Shown here: positions 19,814-46,648 of the stretch, one piece after another
Layout: each line of letters opens with the position of its first letter
Numbering within the stretch: position 1 is the stretch's first letter
Assembly: GCF_039545795.1 (NCBI RefSeq)
Contig: NZ_CP154260.1
Span: 1,865,001 to 1,929,000 of the forward strand
DNA length: 64,000 bases
Direction of reading: 5' to 3'
Source: Chitinophaga niabensis
GTDB lineage: Bacteria > Bacteroidota > Bacteroidia > Chitinophagales > Chitinophagaceae
Notes under the pieces: model-generated
What the model was told of the DNA's origin: nothing
The model's input: only the letters and a program-made list of their open reading frames with translations
Databases searched by the model: none
Translations under genes and position numbers: made by a program

Positions 19814-20510
19814 ATCCCAGTTTGATGGCTTCAAAGAATTGCTTCACGTAAGTATCCCCAATGGGTATCGTATGTGCCCCTATAAAAATGCGCTGCCTTT
19901 CCACACTATCAATCTTATCAATAGCAGTGATAAATGATTTATGCACACGGATGAACTTCTGAGGTGGCAGTATTTCCTCGATCCCGCGCAGGTTCTGCAG
20001 GGTAAGGATTTTTTGACTGACCGTTTGTATAGCCACGTAATTGCGTAAGGCTTCAATGAATAAGATCTCGCTGAGGTTCACCCGCACAATACGTTTGTCT
20101 GTACGGATGAAGATGAATTCATTTTGTACAAGGGAGATATCTTTCGGTTGTTTATTCACCACCTTTTGCACGGCCTTCACAAAACGATCGAACGACACGG
20201 GTTTGAGGAGATAGTCTGTGGCTTCATACTGGAAGCCATCCAGCGCATATTCATCGTAGGCAGAGATGATCACCACATCCACCTGGTTCTGTAATAACTG
20301 CATGAATTCCACGCCGGTGAGTTCCGGCATCTGGATGTCCAGGAACACAAGTTTTACAGATGGTTCCTGTTTCAGGTAGGCCAATGCTTCCAGCGGATTG
20401 GAGAAGCTGCGTTGCAGCTGCAGTTCCGGCATTTTGGAAATAAATGCTTCGATCACCTGTACGGCGAGCGGTTCATCATCTACCACAATACATTGTATAG
20501 CCATATTCAC
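19812..20510 (-). CDS. LytTR-family response regulator (system 2)
   Basis: A 232-residue response regulator. The receiver domain has VDDEP near the N-terminus and phospho-acceptor D58 in VFLDIQMP; the LytTR domain is at about 135-232 (EILFIEALRNYVAIQT, FIRVHKSFITAIDKID). It is the last gene of a three-gene unit: kinase-like protein, LytS-type kinase, regulator. The gap to the kinase stop is 5 bp. A second in-frame ATG two codons later is equally possible as start. The nearest divergent gene is the TlpA-like thioredoxin, a candidate target. Confidence 0.94.
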   Translation of the reverse strand: MNMAIQCIVVDDEPLAVQVIEAFISKMPELQLQRSFSNPLEALAYLKQEPSVKLVFLDIQMPELTGVEFMQLLQNQVDVVIISAYDEYALDGFQYEATDYLLKPVSFDRFVKAVQKVVNKQPKDISLVQNEFIFIRTDKRIVRVNLSEILFIEALRNYVAIQTVSQKILTLQNLRGIEEILPPQKFIRVHKSFITAIDKIDSVERQRIFIGAHTIPIGDTYVKQFFEAIKLG

Positions 20511-33835: not shown

Positions 33836-34657
33836 TTAATGTATCGTATAATCCTTTACGTCCACTTCCGATAATCTGAAATATCCATAAGCGAAGTTTT
33901 CGAAATGGGCCTGATTGATGATATTTCCTCTCACCGAACCTGGTGCTGTTTGAAACGGGCCGTTACCAGCCCCGGATGCTGCTAACAGTTTTCTGAAATA
34001 ATCATAATATCTCCTGGAAATTCCATACAGCCTGATGTTTATCAGATCTCCGGAATCCAGATCTTCGTCAGAAAAATATTCCTGCATCAGCTTGCCCTGA
34101 CTGTTCTTGTCATCTTTAGCTTTATAATCCGGATACTTTGATACAGGCGACAGGATACGATGGAGATAGTGGTTTTCCTCATTGCCATTATCCTGGTAGT
34201 AATATTTGATTTCCACTTCATTACCTCCAAATCCGCCGGCATTATTCTGTTCAATATTATTTTCAATATGCGGCACACCTATACAAGTTTCGGTTGCGGT
34301 ATAGGTTTCCCCATTTAAAACTACTTTTAATGTATAAGTTTCCCCGATAACCGGAAGGAAATTGGAACAGATATATTCTCCTGTTCCGGGGTTTTCTGTA
34401 AAACGAAAAACAGTGTTTTCTGAATTTGTTATCACTATATCCGCTCCTGAAACTGTTGGGAATTCGGTACTGTAATATCCCGTTGTAGTGGAGAGTTTGA
34501 TCTTCTGCTCATTGCCTGTCGTTCCCTTTACCCAATCAATCGATGCGTCAATTACCAGTTTCGGTTCAGCTGTTTCCAGGTCCACATCCACTACTTTTGT
34601 GCAAGACAGTATAAAAAAACAGGATGAGACAATCAGGTATTTAAGTGTATTTTTCAT
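33836..34657 (-). CDS. DUF4249 lipoprotein
   Basis: A 273-residue lipoprotein (signal ending in FILSC, cysteine at about residue 19) with the DUF4249 pattern: TKVVDVDLETAEPKLVIDA at the mature N-terminus, then ADIVITNSENTVFRFTE and GETYTLKVVLNGETYTATE (Ig-like strands). DUF4249 proteins are regularly encoded after a TonB-dependent receptor, as here (16 bp gap), and are presumed surface or periplasmic partners of it. The ligand is unknown. Confidence 0.9.
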   Translation of the reverse strand: MKNTLKYLIVSSCFFILSCTKVVDVDLETAEPKLVIDASIDWVKGTTGNEQKIKLSTTTGYYSTEFPTVSGADIVITNSENTVFRFTENPGTGEYICSNFLPVIGETYTLKVVLNGETYTATETCIGVPHIENNIEQNNAGGFGGNEVEIKYYYQDNGNEENHYLHRILSPVSKYPDYKAKDDKNSQGKLMQEYFSDEDLDSGDLINIRLYGISRRYYDYFRKLLAASGAGNGPFQTAPGSVRGNIINQAHFENFAYGYFRLSEVDVKDYTIH

Positions 34658-34673: not shown

Positions 34674-37046
34674 TTAAAATTTGAAATTGTAAGTCACACC
34701 CGGAATGATGCTGAAGATCGATATCCTCTTTGCTTCGCTCAAGCCTGTTTCCCTGTTTTGCTCGAACATCATAGATGCGGCGTTGCTTCTGTTGTAAACA
34801 TTGTAAAGACTGAACACCCATTCACCTTTCCACCTTTTTTTACTGTCAGGTTTTCGTATATAGGTTGCGGATAGGTCCAAATGATGATAAGCCGGAAGTG
34901 AATTAATATTTCGCTCTCCGTAGTTGGCAACCGTAATTCCCTGGTACTGATATTTACCGATGGGATAGGTGGCAGCTTTCCCCGTCTGGTAAGTGAAAAT
35001 GCCGCCAAAACTCCATTTTTTCGTCAGTTGATAAGCGGCGGTGAGTGAAAGGTTATGCGTTTTGTCGTAATTGGCACGATACCATTCGCCGTTGTTAATA
35101 CCAGGTTCTTCTGCGTTCCTTCCCGGTGTGCGTTGCTCTGCTTTGGAAAGGGTATAAGAAAGCCAGCCTGTGAGTTTTCCGGTATTTTTCTTCAGCATCA
35201 GCTCAAGTCCGTAAGCCCTTGCCTCCCCGTTTAGCAGTACCTGTTCTATGGCTTTGTGGGCAATCAATTCAGCACCGTCAATGTAATCTGCTTTGTTTTT
35301 AGTTTTCTTGTAAAAGGCTTCTGTTTCCAAAGAGTATTTTCCATTGCGGAAATTTCTGAAATAGCCCAATGCAACCTGGTCAAGAATTTCGGGTTTCAGA
35401 TATTGGTCGCTCGGTGCCCAGATGTCGAGTGGAGAAACGGACGCTGTGTTGGAAATCAAATGGATATACTGGCTCATCCGGTTATAACCCGCCTTAATGG
35501 ATTGGTTGTCATTTATAGTATAGGAAACTGCCAAACGAGGTTCTAGATTTCCAAAACCAATAATCTTTTTGTTTTTATTGTAATGTGTTACACTGGTAGG
35601 CGTTCCTTCCTCATAAATTTGTAACTCGGGGTTGAAGATCACTGCCTGATCATTGGCATAATTATTTACATTCTGTTCTCCCAACCGTTGGAAATTGCTA
35701 TACCGCAGTCCGTAATTCAACGATATTTTGTCCGTGAGTTTGTGATCGGCACTGATATACAATGCATTTTCCCAGGCATATTTTTTTTCGAGCTGGTCTG
35801 CATTGATCGGCGATTTAGCATCCATAGGTTTTATTGTACCGGGGTTGAATTGGTAGTAGATGGAGTTGATGCCATAATTCAAAACCAGTTTATCAGACAG
35901 GTTATGGCTGAAATTGTACTTCAGATTATAATTACGGATGTCCGATGTCCAGTCAATACCAACAAATTTTATCTTCAGGCCATAATCGTACTTACTGTAA
36001 ATGACCGATGCATTAGAAAAAAGTTTCTCGGAAAAAGTATGATTCCAGCGAAGATTAAAGAATGAGTTTGAATAGTTGTTGCTGAAAAAATTACTGAAAT
36101 CCATTTTGTCCTTACCGAAATATCCGGAAAGGAAGATCCTGTTATTGTCATTGATCTTGTAATTCAGTTTGGCATTCAAATCATAAAAGGAAACAGAATT
36201 GTCATTGTCCGCCAATTTCATAAGTAAATGAGCATAAGAAGTACGGCCGGCAACCACAAACGAACCTTTATCTTTTACAATAGGACCTTCTGCCAGTAAT
36301 CTGCTTGAAACCGCTCCAATTCCACCCGTTATGTGATATTCTTTGTTATTCCCTTCTTTTTGATAAATATCCAGAACAGAGGAGGTGCGCCCACCGAAAT
36401 TAGCAGGTATTCCACCTTTATACAATTTCAGATCTTTGATCACATCAGCATTAAAAACGGAGAAAAAGCCGAACAGGTGTGAAGTGTTATAAACAACGGC
36501 TTCATCTAACAATACCAGATTACCGTCAACCGAACCGCCCCTGACGTTAAAGCCTGTTGCTCCTTCCTGTGCAGTGGAGACTCCCGGAAGTTGCAGAATG
36601 GCTTTCAAAATATCCACCTCACCCATAACTGCCGGCATCTTTTTGACGGTGGCGATGGAGAGTTTATTCACACTCATTTCCGGTTTTTGGATGTTGCTTG
36701 CTGAGCTATTGGATTTTATCACTACTTCATCTAAAGTTTTACTTTTTTCAAGCATCGAAAAATCCTTCCTGCTATTTCCTGTCAAAATGATATGTTCCTC
36801 AATACTCTCAAACCCTATATAGCTGATAACGATCGTATATTCTCCTTTAGGCAGGGTGATAGAATAGAAACCATACGCATTGGTTACTGCTGAAGCTTTT
36901 ACTTCAGGAATGAAAACGCTTGCGCCGATTATTGTTTCGGTGCTTGTTTTCATGGTGATTGTTCCGCTTAATGTGACTTTCTGCTGTGAATAGGCCCCGA
37001 ATGACATGGTTATTAACAGTAGTGTATAAATGATCTTGTATCTCAT
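34674..37046 (-). CDS. TonB-dependent receptor with carboxypeptidase-like N-terminal domain
   Basis: A 790-residue outer-membrane receptor: signal peptide (MRYKIIYTLLLITMSFGAYSQ), CarboxypepD_reg-like domain at about 24-110 (GASVFIPEVKASAVTNAYGFYSI), plug domain at about 120-230 (ILKAILQLPGVSTAQEGATG, VRGGSVDGNLVLLDEAVVYN), then the beta-barrel ending in IIPGVTYNFKF. It imports an unknown ligand using TonB energy. It is the first gene of a unit with the DUF4249 lipoprotein and is divergent from LytS/LytTR system 3. Its upstream region carries the same direct repeat as the efflux operon. Confidence 0.93.
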   Translation of the reverse strand: MRYKIIYTLLLITMSFGAYSQQKVTLSGTITMKTSTETIIGASVFIPEVKASAVTNAYGFYSITLPKGEYTIVISYIGFESIEEHIILTGNSRKDFSMLEKSKTLDEVVIKSNSSASNIQKPEMSVNKLSIATVKKMPAVMGEVDILKAILQLPGVSTAQEGATGFNVRGGSVDGNLVLLDEAVVYNTSHLFGFFSVFNADVIKDLKLYKGGIPANFGGRTSSVLDIYQKEGNNKEYHITGGIGAVSSRLLAEGPIVKDKGSFVVAGRTSYAHLLMKLADNDNSVSFYDLNAKLNYKINDNNRIFLSGYFGKDKMDFSNFFSNNYSNSFFNLRWNHTFSEKLFSNASVIYSKYDYGLKIKFVGIDWTSDIRNYNLKYNFSHNLSDKLVLNYGINSIYYQFNPGTIKPMDAKSPINADQLEKKYAWENALYISADHKLTDKISLNYGLRYSNFQRLGEQNVNNYANDQAVIFNPELQIYEEGTPTSVTHYNKNKKIIGFGNLEPRLAVSYTINDNQSIKAGYNRMSQYIHLISNTASVSPLDIWAPSDQYLKPEILDQVALGYFRNFRNGKYSLETEAFYKKTKNKADYIDGAELIAHKAIEQVLLNGEARAYGLELMLKKNTGKLTGWLSYTLSKAEQRTPGRNAEEPGINNGEWYRANYDKTHNLSLTAAYQLTKKWSFGGIFTYQTGKAATYPIGKYQYQGITVANYGERNINSLPAYHHLDLSATYIRKPDSKKRWKGEWVFSLYNVYNRSNAASMMFEQNRETGLSEAKRISIFSIIPGVTYNFKF

Positions 37047-37082: not shown

Positions 37083-37090
37083 CAAAACTA
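37083..37090 (-). promoter_or_regulatory. -7 element for the TonB receptor/DUF4249 unit
   Basis: The minus strand reads TAGTTTTG, a full TAnnTTTG match, 37 bp before the receptor ATG and 34 bp after the G of the downstream half-site (37124). Confidence 0.55.
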
Positions 37091-37116: not shown

Positions 37117-37149
37117 AATTATACCAAATGGGGTATCTTTTATAGCAAA
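37117..37149 (-). promoter_or_regulatory. Paired direct repeat upstream of the TonB receptor
   Basis: On the minus strand TTTGCTATAAAA (37149-37138) and TTTGGTATAATT (37128-37117) are direct repeats with a 21-bp period. They match the repeats before the kinase and efflux genes and are a candidate binding site of the neighbouring LytTR regulator. Confidence 0.6.
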
Positions 37150-37207
37150 GTATGTGGGGGTACTACCAAATATATTTTTTGTTTTATGCGTTTTTATAAT
37201 GCTTCCG

Positions 37208-37245
37208 CTTTCGTATAAAAAGCACGGACTTTCGTATAAAAAGCA
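37208..37245 (+). promoter_or_regulatory. Perfect 17-bp direct repeat upstream of the system 3 kinase
   Basis: CTTTCGTATAAAAAGCA occurs twice without mismatch at 37208-37224 and 37229-37245, period 21 bp (two helical turns). Known LytTR regulators such as AgrA bind paired 9-bp direct repeats with about 12 bp between them, which is also a 21-bp period. Likely site of autoregulation. Confidence 0.75.
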
Positions 37246-37268
37246 GGTCAGGCCATAGCTTTAAGCGG

Positions 37269-37276
37269 TATATTTG
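37269..37276 (+). promoter_or_regulatory. -7 element for the system 3 kinase gene
   Basis: TATATTTG matches TAnnTTTG exactly, 20 bp before the ATG and 35 bp after the G of the second repeat core (37234). There is no -33 motif, as expected for an activator-dependent promoter. Confidence 0.6.
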
Positions 37277-37295
37277 TTCTATACACATTTTATAA

Positions 37296-38303
37296 ATGAA
37301 TGATTTTACCCATCAACAGTTTATTAGCGAAAACGTGCTTTTTCGCTTTCTCATCTCACCTGACCGCAGGATATTCCGGCATCTGCTGCTCATTGTTTTC
37401 ATAGGTGCTGTGTTGTACAACAGTACTTCCGTAATTGCCCACCCGGTAGCGTTATTTGTATATTTCATTATATTATTCTATGTAAATATGTACGTGCTGG
37501 TGCCAAAGCTTTTGTTTAAGAATAAGAATATTAAATACTTTTTATCTGTGATCAGCATTCTTGTTGTAATGGCTGTTTGTGGTTATTTTTTCAATCCTAT
37601 CAATGAACAAAACGAGCTGAATATCCCGCTTTTCTCTTTCTTTACCGTGCTGCTGCTAGCGGCTTCATCTTCCGTAAAACTGTTTCAGAAGGGAATGATG
37701 GACAGGCAATTGATCTACGAGTTGGAACGGTCGAAAACATATGCAGAACTGGAACAATTGAAAAACCAGATCAATCCGCATTTTTTGTTTAATATGCTAA
37801 ACAATGCCAATGTTCTAACGAAGAAAGATCCCGAAAAAGCCTCTCAGGTTTTAATGAAACTGAGTGATTTGCTTCGCTATCAGCTTTATGACAGTGCAAG
37901 AGATAAGGTGTTGCTGACTTCGGATATTCGTTTCCTGGAAGATTTTTTAAATTTGGAGAAAATAAGGCGGGATAGTTTTGAGTTCCTGATTTCTAAAGAA
38001 GGAGATCTGAGCGGGGTGCAGATTCCCCCTTTGCTGTTCATTTCGTTTGTGGAAAATGCTGTGAAGCACAACAATGATGCAACAAAATCGTCTTATGTAA
38101 ACCTGTATTTTGATGTCAGGAACGATGAACTTTTCTTCAGATGCATCAACTCCAAACCAATGCTTAGATCCGTTAATAATACAGGCGGATTGGGGTTAGC
38201 AAATGTCAAACGAAGACTGGAACTTTTGTTCCCGGCAACACATAGTCTGAATATCGAAGATGACCCGGAAAGGTATTGCGTAACTTTAACTATAAAGCTA
38301 TGA
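37296..38303 (+). CDS. LytS-like membrane histidine kinase (system 3)
   Basis: A 335-residue kinase with about four transmembrane helices (residues 28-47, 50-68, 80-98, 110-126). The His motif is QINPHFLFNMLNNANVL (H162), the N-box ISFVENAVKHN and the G-box GGLGLANVKRRLELLFP, all intact. It has no extracellular sensor domain, so the signal may be sensed in the membrane or delivered by partner proteins. Its stop overlaps the regulator start by 4 bp (ATGA). Confidence 0.94.
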   Translation: MNDFTHQQFISENVLFRFLISPDRRIFRHLLLIVFIGAVLYNSTSVIAHPVALFVYFIILFYVNMYVLVPKLLFKNKNIKYFLSVISILVVMAVCGYFFNPINEQNELNIPLFSFFTVLLLAASSSVKLFQKGMMDRQLIYELERSKTYAELEQLKNQINPHFLFNMLNNANVLTKKDPEKASQVLMKLSDLLRYQLYDSARDKVLLTSDIRFLEDFLNLEKIRRDSFEFLISKEGDLSGVQIPPLLFISFVENAVKHNNDATKSSYVNLYFDVRNDELFFRCINSKPMLRSVNNTGGLGLANVKRRLELLFPATHSLNIEDDPERYCVTLTIKL

Positions 38304-39022
38304 CTTGTATAATTATAGATGATGAACCATTGGCGAGGGAAGCCATAGAGATGTTGATCAACCAAACTGATGGTTTAGATCTGACCGGTTCGTTCAACAG
38401 CCCCGAAAGCGCCGCAGATTTTATAGAAAAAAATACAGTTGAATTAATCTTTCTTGATATACAAATGCCGGGAATTAACGGAATTGAATTTGCCCGGACC
38501 ATTCCGAAAGAAACATTTGTGATCTTTACCACCGCTTATTCTGAATTTGCTACCGACAGCTACGAAGTAGATGCGATTGACTACCTGATAAAACCCGTAA
38601 AATTAGAGCGTTTTAAAAAGGCTGTTGAAAAGGCCCGGACCTACGCCAAATTATTCAAGGCAGATTATGCTGATAACAATATCGAACAGGTAGCAGACGA
38701 TTTTTTCTTTGTGAAAGCAGACCGGAGGATTTTTAAAGTCTATTTCAATAACATACTTTTTATTCAGGGTTTAAAAGATTATGTTGTGATGCACAGCGAA
38801 AATCAGAAAGTAGTTACGGCGATGAACATCAAAACAATCTATGATCAGCTACCCAAAGATATGTTTGTAAGAGTAAGCAAATCCTATGTCATCAATGTTA
38901 AACATATCGATTCAGTGGATAATAACACGGTGTACATAGGTACAAACGAAATCCCTATCGGAAGTATTTACAGGGATTTCTTTTTCAATGAATTTGTGAC
39001 CAAAAAGATTGCGAACAGGTAA
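38300..39022 (+). CDS. LytTR-family response regulator (system 3)
   Basis: A 240-residue response regulator from the ATG at 38300, which overlaps the kinase stop by 4 bp. The receiver domain has IIDDEP and D53 in IFLDIQMPGING; the LytTR domain is at about 140-235 (NILFIQGLKDYVVMHS, FVRVSKSYVINVKHIDSVD). It is the best candidate for binding the GTATAAAA direct repeats before its own operon, the TonB receptor and the efflux operon. Confidence 0.95.
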   Translation: MTCIIIDDEPLAREAIEMLINQTDGLDLTGSFNSPESAADFIEKNTVELIFLDIQMPGINGIEFARTIPKETFVIFTTAYSEFATDSYEVDAIDYLIKPVKLERFKKAVEKARTYAKLFKADYADNNIEQVADDFFFVKADRRIFKVYFNNILFIQGLKDYVVMHSENQKVVTAMNIKTIYDQLPKDMFVRVSKSYVINVKHIDSVDNNTVYIGTNEIPIGSIYRDFFFNEFVTKKIANR

Positions 39023-39037
39023 ACTCCCCAATACCTT

Positions 39038-39075
39038 CTTTTGTATAAAAAACAGCCGGTTTGGTATAAAATGAA
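39038..39075 (+). promoter_or_regulatory. Paired direct repeat upstream of the efflux operon
   Basis: CTTTTGTATAAAAAACA (from 39038) and GTTTGGTATAAAATGAA (from 39059) share the GTATAAAA core at 39043 and 39064, period 21 bp, like the repeats at 37.1-37.2 kb. A -7-like TATTTTAG (39098-39105, one mismatch) lies 34 bp after the second core. Confidence 0.7.
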
Positions 39076-39155
39076 TTTTAGCCGTTCCCCTATAAGCTAT
39101 TTTAGCAGCATTTTATCAGAGATCCTTTTACAGACGAAGGATTAAGTTAGAATGT

Positions 39156-40484
39156 ATGACTAAAAATTTTCTAATACTATTCATCTTTTGCGTATATGTC
39201 AAAGCTGAGGCCCAGGAGGGCTGGACATTGAAGCATTGCATAGAGTATGGTCTGCAGAATAACCGGAATGCCAGAATCTACGCTAATCAGAAGATCGCTG
39301 CAGATGCTAAAGCCAGGGAGATGCTTGCAGATTATCTTCCAAAAGCGAGTCTCACCTCAATGTTGGACAACAATCTCAAATTGCAGCAAAATGTTATTCC
39401 TGCCGGAGTTCTCGGGCCGAATGAAATCAAGGTGTCCCTTACACAAAAATTTACTTCGAATGCCGTTGCACAACTCGACCAGGTATTATACGATCAGTCA
39501 TTACTGACGGGACTCAAAGCAAATAAATTCAACAGGGAACTGGCTGATCTTAACATTCAGCAGGGTCAGGAATCAATTATCTACAATATCAGCGCTGCCT
39601 ATTTTCAATTACTGGTTTACCGGCAACAGATTCTGCTGTTGCAGTTTAACAGTAAGACCTATGAACGACAGATGGAGATCTACCGGTTGCAGGTGGAAAA
39701 AGGTATTGTATTACAGAAAGACCTTGATAAGGTGTCCGTGGATTTCAATAACACCATGTCGCAGATCAGGGTAGCTGAAAGTAATTTTCAATTGGCGGAA
39801 AATCAGTTGAAATTCGAGATGGGATATCCCATCGATGATAAACTTCAGGTTGATCTGGTAGCTGCTGTGGCGCCGCTGGTTGGTACTGAAGATTCGCTGG
39901 CCAGGTTTTCTCCGGCAGCCCGGATCGACTATCGGGTATCATCCGCTAATATTAGATTATTAGAGATAGAACAGGCTCGCATTAAGGCCGAGGGGCTTCC
40001 CAAATTAACAGGATATGTGCGTTATGGCGCTGTTGGATTTGGCGACAAATTGGGAGGAGCCTATGATGAATTATTGCCATACTCTGCAGTCGGCTTAAAA
40101 CTCACGATCCCAATATTAGACTTCTATAAACGTAATGCCAGGCATAAGCAGGCCATGGTGAACCGGATCAATGCAGAGGAGCGCCTGAAGCTTTCTGAAA
40201 GTAAGTTCAGCGTTGAATTCGAAAATGCGCAGACGAAAGTGACACAGGCCCGGACCAATATGGAAAATGATAAACGAAATATGGACCTGGCCGAATCAGT
40301 ATTTAAGATAACAGATCTTCAATTTCAGAAGGGCACCACTGATCTGAACGACTGGTTAATTACCCGGAATTCCCTCCAGTCAGCGCAAAATAATTATCTG
40401 AACGCTATCTATAGTTACTACCAGGCCCGGGTTGATCTTGAGAAAGCCGCGGGTACATTGAAAACATTTTTAAATTCTCTTTAA
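39156..40484 (+). CDS. TolC-family outer-membrane efflux channel protein
   Basis: A 442-residue OEP protein with a signal peptide (cleavage near AEAQ, about residue 20) and the long alpha-helical hairpins of TolC: WTLKHCIEYGLQNNRNARI, a first helical half (SIIYNISAAYFQLLVYRQQ), GYPIDDKLQVD as the half boundary, and a second half ending DLNDWLITRNSLQSAQNNYLNAIYSYYQARVDLEKAAG. It forms the outer-membrane duct for the adaptor and RND pump encoded 5 bp downstream. The operon is preceded by the LytTR-type repeat. Confidence 0.94.
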   Translation: MTKNFLILFIFCVYVKAEAQEGWTLKHCIEYGLQNNRNARIYANQKIAADAKAREMLADYLPKASLTSMLDNNLKLQQNVIPAGVLGPNEIKVSLTQKFTSNAVAQLDQVLYDQSLLTGLKANKFNRELADLNIQQGQESIIYNISAAYFQLLVYRQQILLLQFNSKTYERQMEIYRLQVEKGIVLQKDLDKVSVDFNNTMSQIRVAESNFQLAENQLKFEMGYPIDDKLQVDLVAAVAPLVGTEDSLARFSPAARIDYRVSSANIRLLEIEQARIKAEGLPKLTGYVRYGAVGFGDKLGGAYDELLPYSAVGLKLTIPILDFYKRNARHKQAMVNRINAEERLKLSESKFSVEFENAQTKVTQARTNMENDKRNMDLAESVFKITDLQFQKGTTDLNDWLITRNSLQSAQNNYLNAIYSYYQARVDLEKAAGTLKTFLNSL

Positions 40485-40489
40485 CTGAG

Positions 40490-41554
40490 ATGAAAAGAAG
40501 GATCATATTGATACTGGTTATCACTGCAATGCTAATTGCCATTGTGGTCAAGCTGGCATACAATAAAAGCAAAATTGCGGAGAAAAAATCACCTCCTAAA
40601 ATTGGGGACATCCGCATACCTGTCACTACTTCCGCTGTGAGGTCGGAGATCATGCTGGAACGCCTGGTGAAAACTGGCACACTGGCGCCTTTAAGAGCGT
40701 CCAGGGTGTTATCTGCTTCCGGCGGCCAGCTACAGAGCGTGATGTTCAGCCTGGGAGATCATGTAAAGAAAGGCCAGTTGCTCGCTATTGTTGATAGCAG
40801 ATTGCTTGCGCTCGACTTGCAAAAGGCCGAGACGAATGTTGTAAAGTTGGAACGGGATCTTAATAATTACAGGGAACTATTGGAAGGAAAGGCCGCTACC
40901 CTTGAAAAGGTGGAGGGTATGCAACAAAGCTATAATGACGCGCTAAATCTTGTTCAACAGATACGAAAACAGATAGCCGATGCGAGTATTAAAGCGCCGG
41001 ATGATGGTGTTATTGCTTCCAGGCCGGTTGAACAGGGTGTATTCATAGCAGCCGGAACAGAAGTAGCCTCCATAGTGAATATGTCATCGCTGAAGGTACA
41101 GGTAAATCTGACGGAGGACGAAGTTTACAAAGTGGCGAAAGGCCAGAAAATTGCCATCACCACAGATGTCTATCCGGAAAGGATTATTTCCGGGGTAGTG
41201 ACTTTCATTAGTCCTCAGGCTAATGAGGCATTCAACTATCAGGTGGAGGTTACTGCCCCTAATGATAAATCCATGCTGCTGCGTGCAGGTACATTTGTTA
41301 ATGCTGACTTCTCAAAGAAAACCGGGCGGAAAGTATTACTTGTTTCGCGGGAGGCCCTCATCGAAAGTACTTCCAATGCGGCTGTTTATGTGGTGATAAA
41401 TGGCAAAGCTATCCTGCGGAAGATCAGTGTAGGTAAAAATTACGGGGAGGAACTAGAGGTACTGGGCGGTTTGGAAGACAGGGAGGAGGTTGTTACTGCT
41501 GGTCAGGTTAACCTGAAGGACAGTGCTTTAATTAAGGTTACTAACAAAGAATAA
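40490..41554 (+). CDS. Efflux RND transporter periplasmic adaptor subunit
   Basis: A 354-residue membrane fusion protein. An N-terminal membrane anchor (IILILVITAMLIAIVVKLAY) is followed by a biotinyl-lipoyl-like domain split by a short helical hairpin (GGQLQSVMFSLGDHVKKGQL, then ASIKAPDDGVIASRPVEQG), a beta-barrel domain (LKVQVNLTEDEVYKVAKGQ) and a membrane-proximal domain (AAVYVVINGKAILRKISVG). It links the TolC-like channel to the RND pump. Gaps of 5 bp on both sides show one operon. Confidence 0.94.
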   Translation: MKRRIILILVITAMLIAIVVKLAYNKSKIAEKKSPPKIGDIRIPVTTSAVRSEIMLERLVKTGTLAPLRASRVLSASGGQLQSVMFSLGDHVKKGQLLAIVDSRLLALDLQKAETNVVKLERDLNNYRELLEGKAATLEKVEGMQQSYNDALNLVQQIRKQIADASIKAPDDGVIASRPVEQGVFIAAGTEVASIVNMSSLKVQVNLTEDEVYKVAKGQKIAITTDVYPERIISGVVTFISPQANEAFNYQVEVTAPNDKSMLLRAGTFVNADFSKKTGRKVLLVSREALIESTSNAAVYVVINGKAILRKISVGKNYGEELEVLGGLEDREEVVTAGQVNLKDSALIKVTNKE

Positions 41555-41559
41555 GAGGT

Positions 41560-44500
41560 ATGTCAATTACTGAAATCGCCATAAAACGGCCCCTGTTGCT
41601 TATTGTGATCTTTACAGTACTGATCCTGTTTGGAATTCAGTCGTACCTGAGTTTAAACTACAATCTCCTGCCTAAAATTGAGGTTCCTACAGTTTCTATC
41701 AGCACCATCTACCCGGGGGCGGCAGCTGCTGAAGTTCAGATCAATGTTACAAAAAAACTTGAAGATGCGGTTTCCTCGGTTGAGGGCCTGGATCAGATTA
41801 GTTCAACTTCCCAGGGAAATCTTTCAATAATTACAATTTCTTTCAGGCCAGGAACTGATGTTGATAAGGCAGAACGTGATGTTCAGCGAAAAGCCGATCA
41901 AATTATCAGTGAGTTACCACCTGATGCTGAAAAGCCGAGGGTAAGTAAGGTTAACCTGGACGAAACTCCGGTTATTAAGGCCGGCGTTACGGGAGATCTG
42001 CCTCCCCGGAAAGCTTTTGACCTGGTCGATAACCAGTTGCGCCCTGTATTACAAAACGTTCCCGGAGTGGGGCAGGTTAACATTATCGGAGGGGAAAAAA
42101 GAGAGATCCAGGTTGATGTAATGCAGGACAGGCTTTTGGCTTATGGGCTTTCCATTGGGCAGGTGACAAATGCTATCGGTAATGCAAACCTTTCATTTCC
42201 TGCCGGGAGCATTGAAACAACAAACAGACAGCTTTCCATCCGATACAATGCAAATGTGGATTCGATCGGGGAGCTTCGTAATCTGATCATTTTGCAGCAC
42301 CCCACGCTGGGCGCCATAAAATTAGGCGATGTTGCTGATGTGTCAGATGGGGCAGCAAAGCCTATCGCCATCAACCACATAGATGGGATACCATCAATTG
42401 GCATTCAAATCATTAAGCAGAGCGATGCAAATGCGGTGGCAGTGAGCGAGCGGGTAAAGAAGTGTTTTAATAAGTTGGAGAAACAATACCAGGGGCAGAA
42501 ACTGAAATTTAATGTTTCCTCGGATCAGAGTGTGTATACATTGCATGCAGCTGATGCAGTGATGTTCGATCTGTTTTTGGCTGTAATAATTGTAGGTATT
42601 GTGATGCTGGCTTTCCTCCATAGTATCAGAAGTGCAACATTTGTGCTGATCGCTCTTCCATCTTCTATCATCCCTACATTTATCGCCATGTACCTGCTGG
42701 GATTTTCCCTGAATCTAATGACGTTAATGGCCATGTCTTTAGTAGTGGGAATCCTTGTGGACGATTCAATTGTGGTTCTGGAGAATATTTATCGCCATAT
42801 GGAGATGGGGGCCGGTAGGGGAAAGGCAGCATTGGAAGGGCGAAATGAGATTGGTTTTACAGCCTTAGCTATCACATTGGTGGATGTGGTGGTGTTTCTG
42901 CCATTGGCATTAGCAGGCGGTATGATTGGATCAGTTTTACGGGAATTTTCTCTCGTTGTTGTTTTTTCAACACTGATGAGCCTCTTTGTATCATTTACCA
43001 TCACACCTTTGCTGGCAAGCAGATTCGGTAAACTGGAACATTTGTCTGCAAAAAGTATTTGGGGAAGGATGAATTTGAAGTTCGAGTACTTTCTTGAAGT
43101 TGTTAAAGAAGAATATGGCAGATTGTTAAGAGTGGTATTGAGAAGAAAGAGATGGTTGCTGATGCTTGTAACGTGCCTGATCTTTGGATCAATTGCGTTG
43201 GTCCCAATGGGATTTATTGGAGCTGCGTTTATTCCGAAGGCGGACCAAAGTGATTTGGTCCTGAATATAGAATTGGAACCAACAGCAAGTATTTACAAGA
43301 CTAATATGAAGGTTCAGCAGGCGGAGAAGATTATTCAGGAACAACCAGAGGTGAAGAGGATCTTCTCCAGCATAGGGTTTGTGAGTGGAAGCGTGGCCGG
43401 AGCGTCATCAAATGCCAACCTGGCTGAACTGACGATTGGCCTGGTCGATAAACACCTGAGAAGTAAAAATTCTGAGGAACTCGGCGTGTATCTGCAGCAA
43501 AAATTAAGTAGTATCATAAAGGGCGTGAAGTTTACAGTAGCCCCCACCTCAATAACAGGAAATGTAAGTAACGCGCCGATACAGATAGCTATCAAGGGTG
43601 TTGATCTGAGAGACGTCCGGCATGTTGCCGAGGAGTATATGAAGGTTATTGCAGATGTTCCCGGGGCGCAATTTGTAAAGCTGTCCGTAAAGAACAGGAA
43701 GCCAGAGGTGGGTATCAGGCTCAACAGGGAAAGAATGAGTCTCCTCGGACTCAATGCGGGTGCTGTTGGTGCTGCGCTGCAGAATGCATTTAGGGGGGAT
43801 GACAGGAATCAGTTCAAACAAAATGGGAATGACTATGATATCAGGATAGGGCTGGACCAGTTTAGCAGATCGGATGTCAGCAATATAAGGAACCTGCCGG
43901 TAGTAAACGCTAATGGCCAGACAATACTGCTGCGGCAATTCGCGGATGTTGAGGAAATGCTGGGGGAAACCACGCTTCAGCGTATTGACCGACTCGGATC
44001 AATTACAGTGCAGGCAAACGTTTCCGGGCGGCCAACGGGTACTGTAGGTACTGAGATCAAAGCTAAGGCAAAATCCATCAAGGTGCCGGAAGGAGTTAGC
44101 ATTGAGTATCTGGGAGATTCCAAAAATCAGGCAGATGCCTTTGGAAGTTTGGGCCTGGCACTTATCACCGCAATCGTACTGGTGTATCTTATCATGGTGG
44201 CGCTTTATGAAAATGCGGTGTATCCATTTGTGGTGCTGTTTTCAATACCAGTGGCACTGGTTGGTGCATTACTGGCGCTGGCTCTTACTATGGAAACATT
44301 AAACATCTTTACGATTATCGGGATGATCATGCTAATGGGCCTGGTTGCTAAAAATGCTATTCTCATTGTGGACTTTGCCAATAAACTCAAAGAGGAGGGG
44401 CATGGAACTGTGGAAGCACTGATTGAAGCAGGCAGGGAAAGGCTTCGCCCAATTCTTATGACAACGTTCGCGATGATCTTTGGCATGTTACCCATAGCAA

Positions 44501-44652
44501 TGGCAAAAGGCGCCGCGGCTGAGATTAAAAACGGAATGGCCTGGGTGATCATTGGAGGATTGACAAGTTCTATGATACTCACGCTCTTTGTGGTACCTGC
44601 TATGTACCTGATTGTGGATGGTATACTTGTCCGTTTTAAGAGGCCCTCTTAG
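41560..44652 (+). CDS. RND efflux transporter permease (HAE1/AcrB type)
   Basis: A 1030-residue proton-driven pump of full length. It has 12 transmembrane helices in two halves with two large periplasmic domains. TM1 is at about residues 10-30 (LLLIVIFTVLILFGI), and TM4 carries the acidic pair in GILVDDSIVVLENIYRH. The second half has ALITAIVLVYLIMVALYENA, GLVAKNAILIVDFANKLKEEG and RLRPILMTTFAMIFGMLPIA. It expels small molecules such as drugs or metabolites; substrates are not predictable, though the single acidic-pair pattern fits organic compounds rather than heavy metals. Last gene of the operon. Confidence 0.95.
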   Translation: MSITEIAIKRPLLLIVIFTVLILFGIQSYLSLNYNLLPKIEVPTVSISTIYPGAAAAEVQINVTKKLEDAVSSVEGLDQISSTSQGNLSIITISFRPGTDVDKAERDVQRKADQIISELPPDAEKPRVSKVNLDETPVIKAGVTGDLPPRKAFDLVDNQLRPVLQNVPGVGQVNIIGGEKREIQVDVMQDRLLAYGLSIGQVTNAIGNANLSFPAGSIETTNRQLSIRYNANVDSIGELRNLIILQHPTLGAIKLGDVADVSDGAAKPIAINHIDGIPSIGIQIIKQSDANAVAVSERVKKCFNKLEKQYQGQKLKFNVSSDQSVYTLHAADAVMFDLFLAVIIVGIVMLAFLHSIRSATFVLIALPSSIIPTFIAMYLLGFSLNLMTLMAMSLVVGILVDDSIVVLENIYRHMEMGAGRGKAALEGRNEIGFTALAITLVDVVVFLPLALAGGMIGSVLREFSLVVVFSTLMSLFVSFTITPLLASRFGKLEHLSAKSIWGRMNLKFEYFLEVVKEEYGRLLRVVLRRKRWLLMLVTCLIFGSIALVPMGFIGAAFIPKADQSDLVLNIELEPTASIYKTNMKVQQAEKIIQEQPEVKRIFSSIGFVSGSVAGASSNANLAELTIGLVDKHLRSKNSEELGVYLQQKLSSIIKGVKFTVAPTSITGNVSNAPIQIAIKGVDLRDVRHVAEEYMKVIADVPGAQFVKLSVKNRKPEVGIRLNRERMSLLGLNAGAVGAALQNAFRGDDRNQFKQNGNDYDIRIGLDQFSRSDVSNIRNLPVVNANGQTILLRQFADVEEMLGETTLQRIDRLGSITVQANVSGRPTGTVGTEIKAKAKSIKVPEGVSIEYLGDSKNQADAFGSLGLALITAIVLVYLIMVALYENAVYPFVVLFSIPVALVGALLALALTMETLNIFTIIGMIMLMGLVAKNAILIVDFANKLKEEGHGTVEALIEAGRERLRPILMTTFAMIFGMLPIAMAKGAAAEIKNGMAWVIIGGLTSSMILTLFVVPAMYLIVDGILVRFKRPS

Positions 44653-45835: not shown

Positions 45836-46648
45836 ATGACGAATCCAACAGAAATACTCCCGGGGATCATCTTTTTCTCTTATTACTCGGACATGAGAAA
45901 GGAGAAAGTTGCATTCATGGAGGATAATACCCTGATATTGCAGGTTTTGGGCCAGTTTGTATTGGAAACAGCCAACCACAGGATTTCAATGGAGGGCGGC
46001 GAAATGTTACTGGTACGAAAGAATCAACTGGGAGAAATTACCAAGATCCCTTTGAACGGTGAGGGGTATCAAACAATTGTCATTCGCCTGAAAGAGGACT
46101 TACTCAGGAAAATAGCCCTTGAAGAACAGATAGAGGTAAAACAAAAATACATAGGGCCTTCCAGCCTTCTAATCCCCGGGAATGATTTTTTACATGCCTT
46201 TTTTCATTCCCTGCTTCCGTATGTCCGCCATCCGGAAAAAAAGATAACCACAGAGGTAGGTATGCTGAAAGTAAAAGAGGCAGTATACCTCCTCCTGGAT
46301 GTCATGCCCGGGCTCAGAGAATTCCTGTTCGATTTTTCTGATCCTTATAAGATGGACCTGGAAAAATTCATGGTCAGCAATTTCCATTATAACATTCCTG
46401 TTGATCAATTTGCACGGCTCACGGGAAGAAGTCTTGCCGGGTTCAAGCGTGATTTCCAGAAAATATTCGGGATGGCTCCGCGGCAGTGGTTGCAGGAAAG
46501 GAGATTAACGGAAGCCCGCCATCTTATAGAAACTAAGAACAAAAAGCCATCGGACATCTATCTCGATCTGGGATTTGAAAGTCTCTCTCATTTCTCGCAT
46601 TCCTTTAAAAAGAAATTCGGTAAGGCACCCACTGAATGGGCGATTTAG
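45836..46648 (+). CDS. AraC-family transcriptional regulator
   Basis: A 270-residue regulator: an N-terminal cupin-like sensing domain (ILQVLGQFVLETANHRISMEGG, LLVRKNQLGEITKIP) and a C-terminal double helix-turn-helix at about 170-268 (VDQFARLTGRSLAGFKRDFQ, PRQWLQERRLTEARHLIE, DIYLDLGFESLSHFSHSFKKKFG). It begins 17 bp after the aldo/keto reductase and is probably co-transcribed with it and controls it. Confidence 0.93.
   Translation: MTNPTEILPGIIFFSYYSDMRKEKVAFMEDNTLILQVLGQFVLETANHRISMEGGEMLLVRKNQLGEITKIPLNGEGYQTIVIRLKEDLLRKIALEEQIEVKQKYIGPSSLLIPGNDFLHAFFHSLLPYVRHPEKKITTEVGMLKVKEAVYLLLDVMPGLREFLFDFSDPYKMDLEKFMVSNFHYNIPVDQFARLTGRSLAGFKRDFQKIFGMAPRQWLQERRLTEARHLIETKNKKPSDIYLDLGFESLSHFSHSFKKKFGKAPTEWAI

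Follow-up and report, generated by a model that had tools for sequence, protein, structure and literature searches.

What does it mean that one direct repeat stands in front of an import receptor, a sensory pair and an efflux pump? The question is raised by a 64,000-nucleotide stretch of the Chitinophaga niabensis genome (the window), which covers positions 1865001-1929000 of a single contig of 7,201,998 bases. Paired repeats precede a unit encoding a TonB-dependent receptor and a DUF4249 protein, an operon of a sensor histidine kinase (37296-38303) and a LytTR response regulator (38300-39022), and an operon of TolC, membrane-fusion and RND efflux proteins. An earlier note on this DNA had reported these pairs and proposed that the regulator controls all three units. 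We confirm that the repeats are real and well above chance. Comparison among genomes makes it very probable that they are the operator of the LytTR regulator, which would activate the receptor, kinase-regulator and pump units with positive feedback. One regulator very likely switches all three units, because the operator travels with the regulator through many relatives.

A direct repeat at three promoters

The refined operator reads TTTnGTATAAA-N10-TTTnGTATAAA. On the kinase side, two perfect 17-bp copies of CTTTCGTATAAAAAGCA lie at 37208-37224 and 37229-37245 with a period of 21, and the operator pair within them, TTTCGTATAAA-N10-TTTCGTATAAA (37209-37240, plus strand), has no mismatch. The same is true of the pair before the TolC gene, TTTTGTATAAA-N10-TTTGGTATAAA (39039-39070, plus strand), which is kept in TolC orthologues. 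The pair before the TonB receptor gene, TTTGCTATAAA-N10-TTTGGTATAAT (37118-37149, minus strand), is the weakest of the three, with 2 mismatches at the 20 fixed positions, and is also conserved. All three were located where the earlier note had placed them, each with a period of exactly 21 bp. A -7-like element follows the core G of the downstream repeat by 34 bp at the TonB promoter (TAGTTTTG, 37083-37090, minus strand), by 35 bp at the kinase promoter (TATATTTG, 37269-37276, plus strand) and by 34 bp at the TolC promoter (TATTTTAG, 39098-39105, plus strand). These distances had been given correctly; the likeness to TAnnTTTG does not extend to the TolC element, which is a poor and weak version of it. 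Each promoter thus has the layout of a LytTR operator, two direct repeats of about 21-bp period immediately upstream.

The TonB promoter also has a degenerate third half-site, TTTGGTAGTAC (37160-37170, minus strand), in phase and upstream of the pair. It was absent from the earlier note, and it recurs in relatives: in this register, 20/36 TonB promoters match within 4 mismatches and 12/36 within 3, against 0-5 (0-1) in five shifted control registers.

How specific is the operator? As a control we used the pattern read backwards, or shuffles where stated. The core alone (GTATAAAA twice, at most 3 mismatches) has 4 matches in the window, a number reached by 3/100 shuffles. Adding the TTTn flank gives 6 matches in the genome against 2 in the control (at most 3 mismatches). 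The full operator, at up to 2 mismatches, occurs 4 times in the 7.2-Mb genome and never in reversed form; three of these matches are the named promoters, which lie within 2 kb, and the fourth is at an AraC-family locus, where the core G and the -7 element are separated by 28 bp and not by 34-35. When TAnnTTT is required at 33-35 bp, 2 matches remain in this genome (TonB and kinase; control 0), and 55, counted from the list, in the 79 Chitinophaga genomes of our genus set (control 14). Neither the full operator nor the operator with its -7 element revealed further targets in the C. niabensis genome beyond the three units, and the regulon therefore appears to be local in this species.

Conservation of the operator with the regulator

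A LytTR relative at E<=1e-60 is present in 42 of the 79 Chitinophaga genomes and missing from 37. Allowing up to 2 mismatches, we count 100 sites in the genus, whereas the reversed pattern gives 26. Perfect operators number 26, in 22 genomes, and all of these genomes are among the 42 with a LytTR relative (none in the other 37; Fisher test 2.7e-8, relatedness ignored). The 19 genomes with a regulator of at least 84% identity account for 51 sites at up to 2 mismatches (control 7).

Outside the genus, we fetched 80 named loci by LytTR similarity alone and scored 78 at the kinase promoter, allowing up to 4 mismatches, with at most 1/100 shuffles reaching each score. The operator precedes the kinase gene in 42/78 (16 perfect), and reading locus L236 separately gives 43/80. 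These loci reach down to 49% LytTR identity. Genera with the operator include Chitinophaga, Pedobacter, Chryseobacterium, Niabella, Flavobacterium and Algoriphagus. With the loci assigned by record title, 43/46 non-Bacteroidales loci have the operator before the kinase gene, and 0/33 scored loci of Bacteroidales relatives (55-61% identity and lower, mostly kinase-kinase-LytTR) have it at the nearest kinase. Upstream of the first gene in Bacteroidales, 4-mismatch pairs occur only in the Paludibacteraceae loci L281, L283 and L286, and a TAnnTTTG element accompanies two of these. The three pairs are of the type TTTgATATAcA...TTTGATATATA, have a 21-bp period, and precede the kinase-kinase-LytTR operon by about 0.35 kb.

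The promoter distance is kept as well. With a search range of 26-44 bp and ties drawn toward 34, a -7-like element stands at 33-35 bp in 42/42 scored kinase promoters and 35/35 TonB promoters. Every locus with a divergent TonB gene has an operator pair before that gene (35/35, 0-5 mismatches), the weakest pairs being insufficient on their own. In Flavobacterium, 21/299 genomes have a LytTR relative at E<=1e-70, and an operator with no more than 4 mismatches is present in 21/23 loci; of the two remaining, L305 has no site and the sequence of L298 begins within the kinase gene. The same operator was also seen in a second LytTR clade of 46-50% identity (L076, L095, L172, L173, L176, L181, L322, L323). 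It faces a gene of about 340 aa there, often with an RND operon adjoining; this gene has a weak DUF6268 match, below the cut-off, in L176, and none in L172 and L173.

Could the repeats be a chance likeness, such as AT-rich promoter DNA may produce, or an element common to promoters in general? The bare core does occur at background numbers, and the earlier note had itself named frequency at unrelated promoters as a possible refutation, which is true of the bare core and untrue of the full operator except for one AraC-linked look-alike. Yet the full operator, its period and its -7 distance are found again at equivalent positions in different orders, even as the 10 bp that separate the copies drift, and the reversed controls gave 0 in C. 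niabensis and 26 against 100 in the genus. The conservation data refute chance as a full explanation, and we consider this reading next to impossible. Loss of conservation in orthologous loci had likewise been proposed as a refuting result; when this was tested, the motif proved to be conserved. Across Bacteroidota outside Bacteroidales, the regulator is accompanied by the operator, with its period and -7 distance retained. This comparative evidence supports the proposal that the regulator controls its own operon and the TonB/DUF4249 and TolC/RND units.

Several observations weigh against the regulator being the owner of these sites. With up to 2 mismatches allowed, a shortened core has 166 genome matches against 145 reversed, and the core alone is weak evidence, because its match counts are near background. 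The 37 genomes lacking a LytTR relative still have 17 sites at up to 2 mismatches (control 8), partly AraC-linked. Among the non-Bacteroidales exceptions, Chryseobacterium sp. ISL-6 (L224, 87% regulator) is without a kinase-side site and keeps the TonB-side one, and no site was found at the Sphingobacterium haloxyli locus (L292, 53%). Within Chitinophaga, no operator was found in genome G023 (84% regulator), nor at the kinase promoter of G013 (56%). Regulators of 67-71% identity have a core drifted to GTATAT/GTATAG, with 3-4 mismatches. Of the 19 Chitinophaga genomes whose regulator is at least 84% identical, only 2 have the pump next to it. The classical LytTR consensus is [TA][AC][CA]GTTN[AG][TG]; the best registers of the half-site fit it at 5-8 of 9 positions, and random AT-rich 18-mers mostly at 6-8. 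The likeness to LytTR operators that the earlier note invoked thus holds for the architecture, and for the sequence is no better than chance. Low sequence conservation of the repeats among LytTR systems has been described (PMC6193735).

Some of these cases have features of their own. In L266, the third non-Bacteroidales exception, two pairs with 1 and 2 mismatches stand some 0.9-1 kb in front of the kinase. At the G023 locus (L047), the 544-residue frame with the regulator matches the regulator only and not the kinase, and DUF4249 is still nearby; this is possibly a decayed cassette. The variant operator GTATAT/GTATAG occurs in ten loci (L237-L243, L246-L248), whose regulators have 16 group-specific residues, 5 of them in or near the LytTR domain (136, 150, 165, 174, 183). 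We considered these residues as specificity contacts and dropped the idea, since shared descent explains them equally well.

Proposed activation, AraC-linked look-alikes and the efflux pump

How would such an operator work? In the mechanism that we propose, a signal would reach the membrane kinase, which would phosphorylate the regulator; a phospho-dependent regulator dimer would then bind the two TTTnGTATAAA half-sites on one helix face, the period of 21 being two turns. With the core G 33-35 bp before the -7 element, the downstream half-site would span about -50 to -39, next to RNA polymerase on its upstream side, and the other half-site would be two turns farther from the promoter. The bound regulator would activate promoters that have a -7 element and lack a good -33 element. 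In C. niabensis the regulon would have three members: the operon that encodes the regulator itself, giving positive feedback, the TonB receptor/DUF4249 unit divergent from that operon, and the TolC/membrane-fusion/RND operon that follows it. We infer binding, phosphorylation and activation rather than repression from the sequence, and presume a common or related set of compounds for receptor and pump. The alignment of 43 kinase promoters revealed no conserved -33 element, nor anything else conserved between operator and -7 element; an activator is therefore expected.

The regulator (240 aa, plus strand) is the proposed operator-binding activator and has receiver and LytTR domains above the Pfam cut-offs: PF00072 (E 3.2e-21, 76 bits, cut-off 30.2) and PF04397 (E 2.3e-15, 57 bits, cut-off 22.6). 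The kinase (335 aa, plus strand) has about four N-terminal hydrophobic stretches by hydropathy, between residues about 29 and 130, followed by the kinase domain PF06580 (E 1.9e-23). This is its sole Pfam domain; no sensor domain was recognized and there is no NCBIfam match. A LytS-type sensor region consists of 5TM-5TMR_LYT and GAF domains. The Pfam search found no LytS-type domain in the kinase, which places the pair outside LytS/LytR and makes the earlier label "LytS" a loose one. The TonB unit, on the minus strand, consists of a receptor with a CarbopepD_reg domain (34674-37046, 790 aa; PF13715, PF07715) and, second, a lipoprotein-type DUF4249 gene (33836-34657, 273 aa; PF14054, E 3.7e-21). 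The plus-strand efflux operon encodes a TolC-type outer-membrane protein (39156-40484, 442 aa; PF02321, E 3.8e-37), a periplasmic adaptor, or membrane-fusion, protein (40490-41554, 354 aa; PF16576, PF13437) and an RND permease (41560-44652, 1030 aa; PF00873, E 5e-257), whose NCBIfam subfamily matches are below the cut-offs.

The operator could be right and the regulator could still act as a repressor, or share its sites with LytTR paralogues. The C. niabensis genome has 32 LytTR domains, and relatives of the second clade (G024, G034, G063, G064, G091 and others) have the same operator; cross-binding is therefore possible where two members coexist. However, only one regulator in C. niabensis reaches E<=1e-60, and no other operon with the site was found in its genome. 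The sites end upstream of a promoter core without a good -33 element, which is the geometry of an activator, and HdrR and PlnC, with similarly placed sites, are activators (PMC6193735, PMC2714321). We therefore consider repression or sharing unlikely and continue to favor activation by this regulator. Elsewhere in the window, another LytTR gene (19824-20096, minus strand; L140) has an upstream 21-bp-lag repeat of different sequence, GTACGTACAGGCA/GTACGTTCCGGCA, with 0/100 shuffles reaching it at lag 20-22. A lag of 21 is the best lag upstream of 5/32 LytTR operons in the genome; other multiples of three (27 and 33) are also raised, as coding DNA would give, and we drew no general rule for the LytTR genes of this genome from the comparison.

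Might an AraC-family regulator, and not the LytTR protein, bind the repeats? Direct repeats about 21 bp apart are used by AraC-type proteins too, and the window itself includes an AraC-family gene (45836-46648). Moreover, the fourth near-perfect genome site (G000:C1:7103488-7103519; L003, L033, L166) lies 12 bp before an AraC-family gene (331 aa, PF12833), and a minus-strand open frame of 155 codons starts about 50 bp after the site. The same site is found in G070 and G021 and one of similar type in G003, G061, G033, G072, G065 and G100. Further AraC loci in Chitinophaga thus have an almost identical operator; all six neighbors that were scanned belong to the AraC family. At nine AraC-type sites, however, 27-28 bp separate the core G from the -7-like element; LytTR-linked sites have 33-35 bp. 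An adjoining AraC gene with a -7 element at 27-28 bp is what the fourth site shows; the three sites of the window, at 34, 35 and 34 bp, do not have it. LytTR-linked sites also follow LytTR identity, and dozens of these loci had no AraC neighbor noted, although no systematic AraC search was made there. The operator alone cannot separate LytTR from AraC sites in these sequences; the -7 distance does. An AraC-family owner for the window's sites is thus very unlikely, even more so than repression, and the LytTR regulator remains the preferred one.

Of the regulon's members, the efflux pump is the least conserved. The genus has 19 TolC relatives at E<=1e-90. The orthologues of 64-100% identity all have the operator upstream (6/6, 0-4 mismatches, 0/200 shuffles), and those of 46-56% identity do not (0/13, 6-9 mismatches). 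The site is retained at the TolC operon even when far from the regulator, which supports the inclusion of the pump: it is beside the regulator in G000 and G004, about 5 kb from a second-clade regulator in G024 and G091, about 20 kb away and with two operators in G089, and 1.7 Mb away in G070. Three Flavobacterium genomes have a TolC-adaptor-RND operon that carries the operator: it follows the regulator at L234, which is the same place as L300, and is convergent to it in G190 and G346, two nearly identical genomes. From these comparisons the pump is a recurrent and not a general member, and the earlier view of it is to be corrected in that its membership is sporadic.

Probable spread of the cassette and comparison with known systems

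How might the same arrangement have reached distant Bacteroidota? DUF4249-TonB/kinase-LytTR cassettes with regulators 77-90% identical are found in Pedobacter, Chryseobacterium, Taibaiella, Niabella, Flavobacterium and Muricauda (L219, L220, L223, L224, L227, L229-L233); in L229, only the kinase and regulator were recognized. As a yardstick we used SufB, found in 10/11 genomes asked and not in the Pedobacter sp. AK013 record. In five of six such genomes asked, wherever SufB could be compared, the regulator identity (77-90%) exceeds that of SufB (70-80%). Chryseobacterium populi has a regulator 90%, a receptor 88% and a DUF4249 protein 87% identical, and a SufB only 73%. The values for regulator and SufB are 88% and 80% in Taibaiella koreensis, and 71% and 81% in Chitinophaga filiformis. 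A fast-evolving type of protein that is more alike across orders than the highly conserved SufB suggests that the whole cassette, operators included, was transferred horizontally. GC content was set aside as a general sign of transfer: the cassette differs plainly from its flanks in Chitinophaga alhagiae (41.8%; flanks 54.3 and 51.6), and the difference is mild in C. niabensis (39.3; 44.3 and 46.5) and absent in Chryseobacterium populi (38.0; 38.9 and 34.1).

More tentatively, one could imagine a portable sense-import-expel cassette of receptor/DUF4249, kinase-LytTR and, in certain lineages, an RND pump, joined by a single operator, that has spread between Bacteroidota orders. An incoming compound sensed at the cell surface would induce both its receptor and its own efflux, and LytTR and AraC regulons that have converged on almost the same 21-bp-period operator would be kept apart by the -7 distance (33-35 against 27-28 bp). 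We regard this scheme as possible rather than probable. A Flavobacterium johnsoniae kinase/LytTR pair (FJOH_RS09520/RS09515) was mutated in 5/5 lines coevolved with Burkholderia, the kinase in three and the LytTR gene in two (PMC10197871). As a link between the cassette and antibiotic tolerance it is no more than a lead, since orthology was not established and the 6.2-Mb Flavobacterium genome G214 misfits the reported base (position 46 = A).

A defined operator with a fixed promoter distance may provide a rule for reading LytTR regulons from sequence in Bacteroidota, where LytTR regulators are numerous. It would also join TonB/DUF4249, kinase-LytTR and RND pump genes, usually annotated apart, into one testable response. 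In titles and abstract beginnings of the open-access literature, we found no Bacteroidota operator for a kinase-paired LytTR regulator; a single paper there names DUF4249.

Which known systems come closest? LytTR activators bind 9-bp repeats with 12-bp spacers just upstream of the promoter (PMC2714321, PMC2766830). The operators of AgrA, ComE, PlnC/PlnD and SilA are alike in being direct repeats of 21-bp period (9+12 or 10+11) directly upstream of the promoter, with the regulator adjoining its own operator (PMC2714321, PMC2766830). They differ in sequence, ours being the AT-rich TTTnGTATAAA with a Bacteroidota-type -7 element rather than the classical consensus, and in their targets, which are bacteriocin or virulence genes and here a TonB receptor and an RND pump. 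Positive autoregulation through direct repeats is also known from LytTR regulatory systems (LRS), including operons of Bacteroides thetaiotaomicron and B. ovatus, where autoregulatory repeats precede the operon promoter at a constant distance; the Bacteroides LRS-like operons have a TATCTTTG -7 element and repeats of period 22, 11 bp upstream of the promoter (PMC6193735). In LRS, however, the partner of the LytTR regulator is an inhibitory membrane protein and there is no kinase. Here a PF06580 histidine kinase is the partner of a receiver-LytTR regulator, which places the system outside the LRS, and the operator is also present at two further transcription units.

BtsS/BtsR (YehU/YehT) also combine a PF06580-kind kinase with a receiver-LytTR regulator. 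BtsR (NF008677) is the best NCBIfam match of our regulator, at 121.1 bits and below the cut-off of 246; there is no equivalog match, and the targets differ. The TonB-dependent receptor and DUF4249 protein form an operon in BT2172/BT2173 as well, a pairing conserved across dozens of genera (PMC11003636); the passage on this pairing mentions no LytTR system or operator. Set beside these systems, the conserved operator and its small regulon have a known architecture, an unusual combination of targets and an informative AraC-family look-alike.

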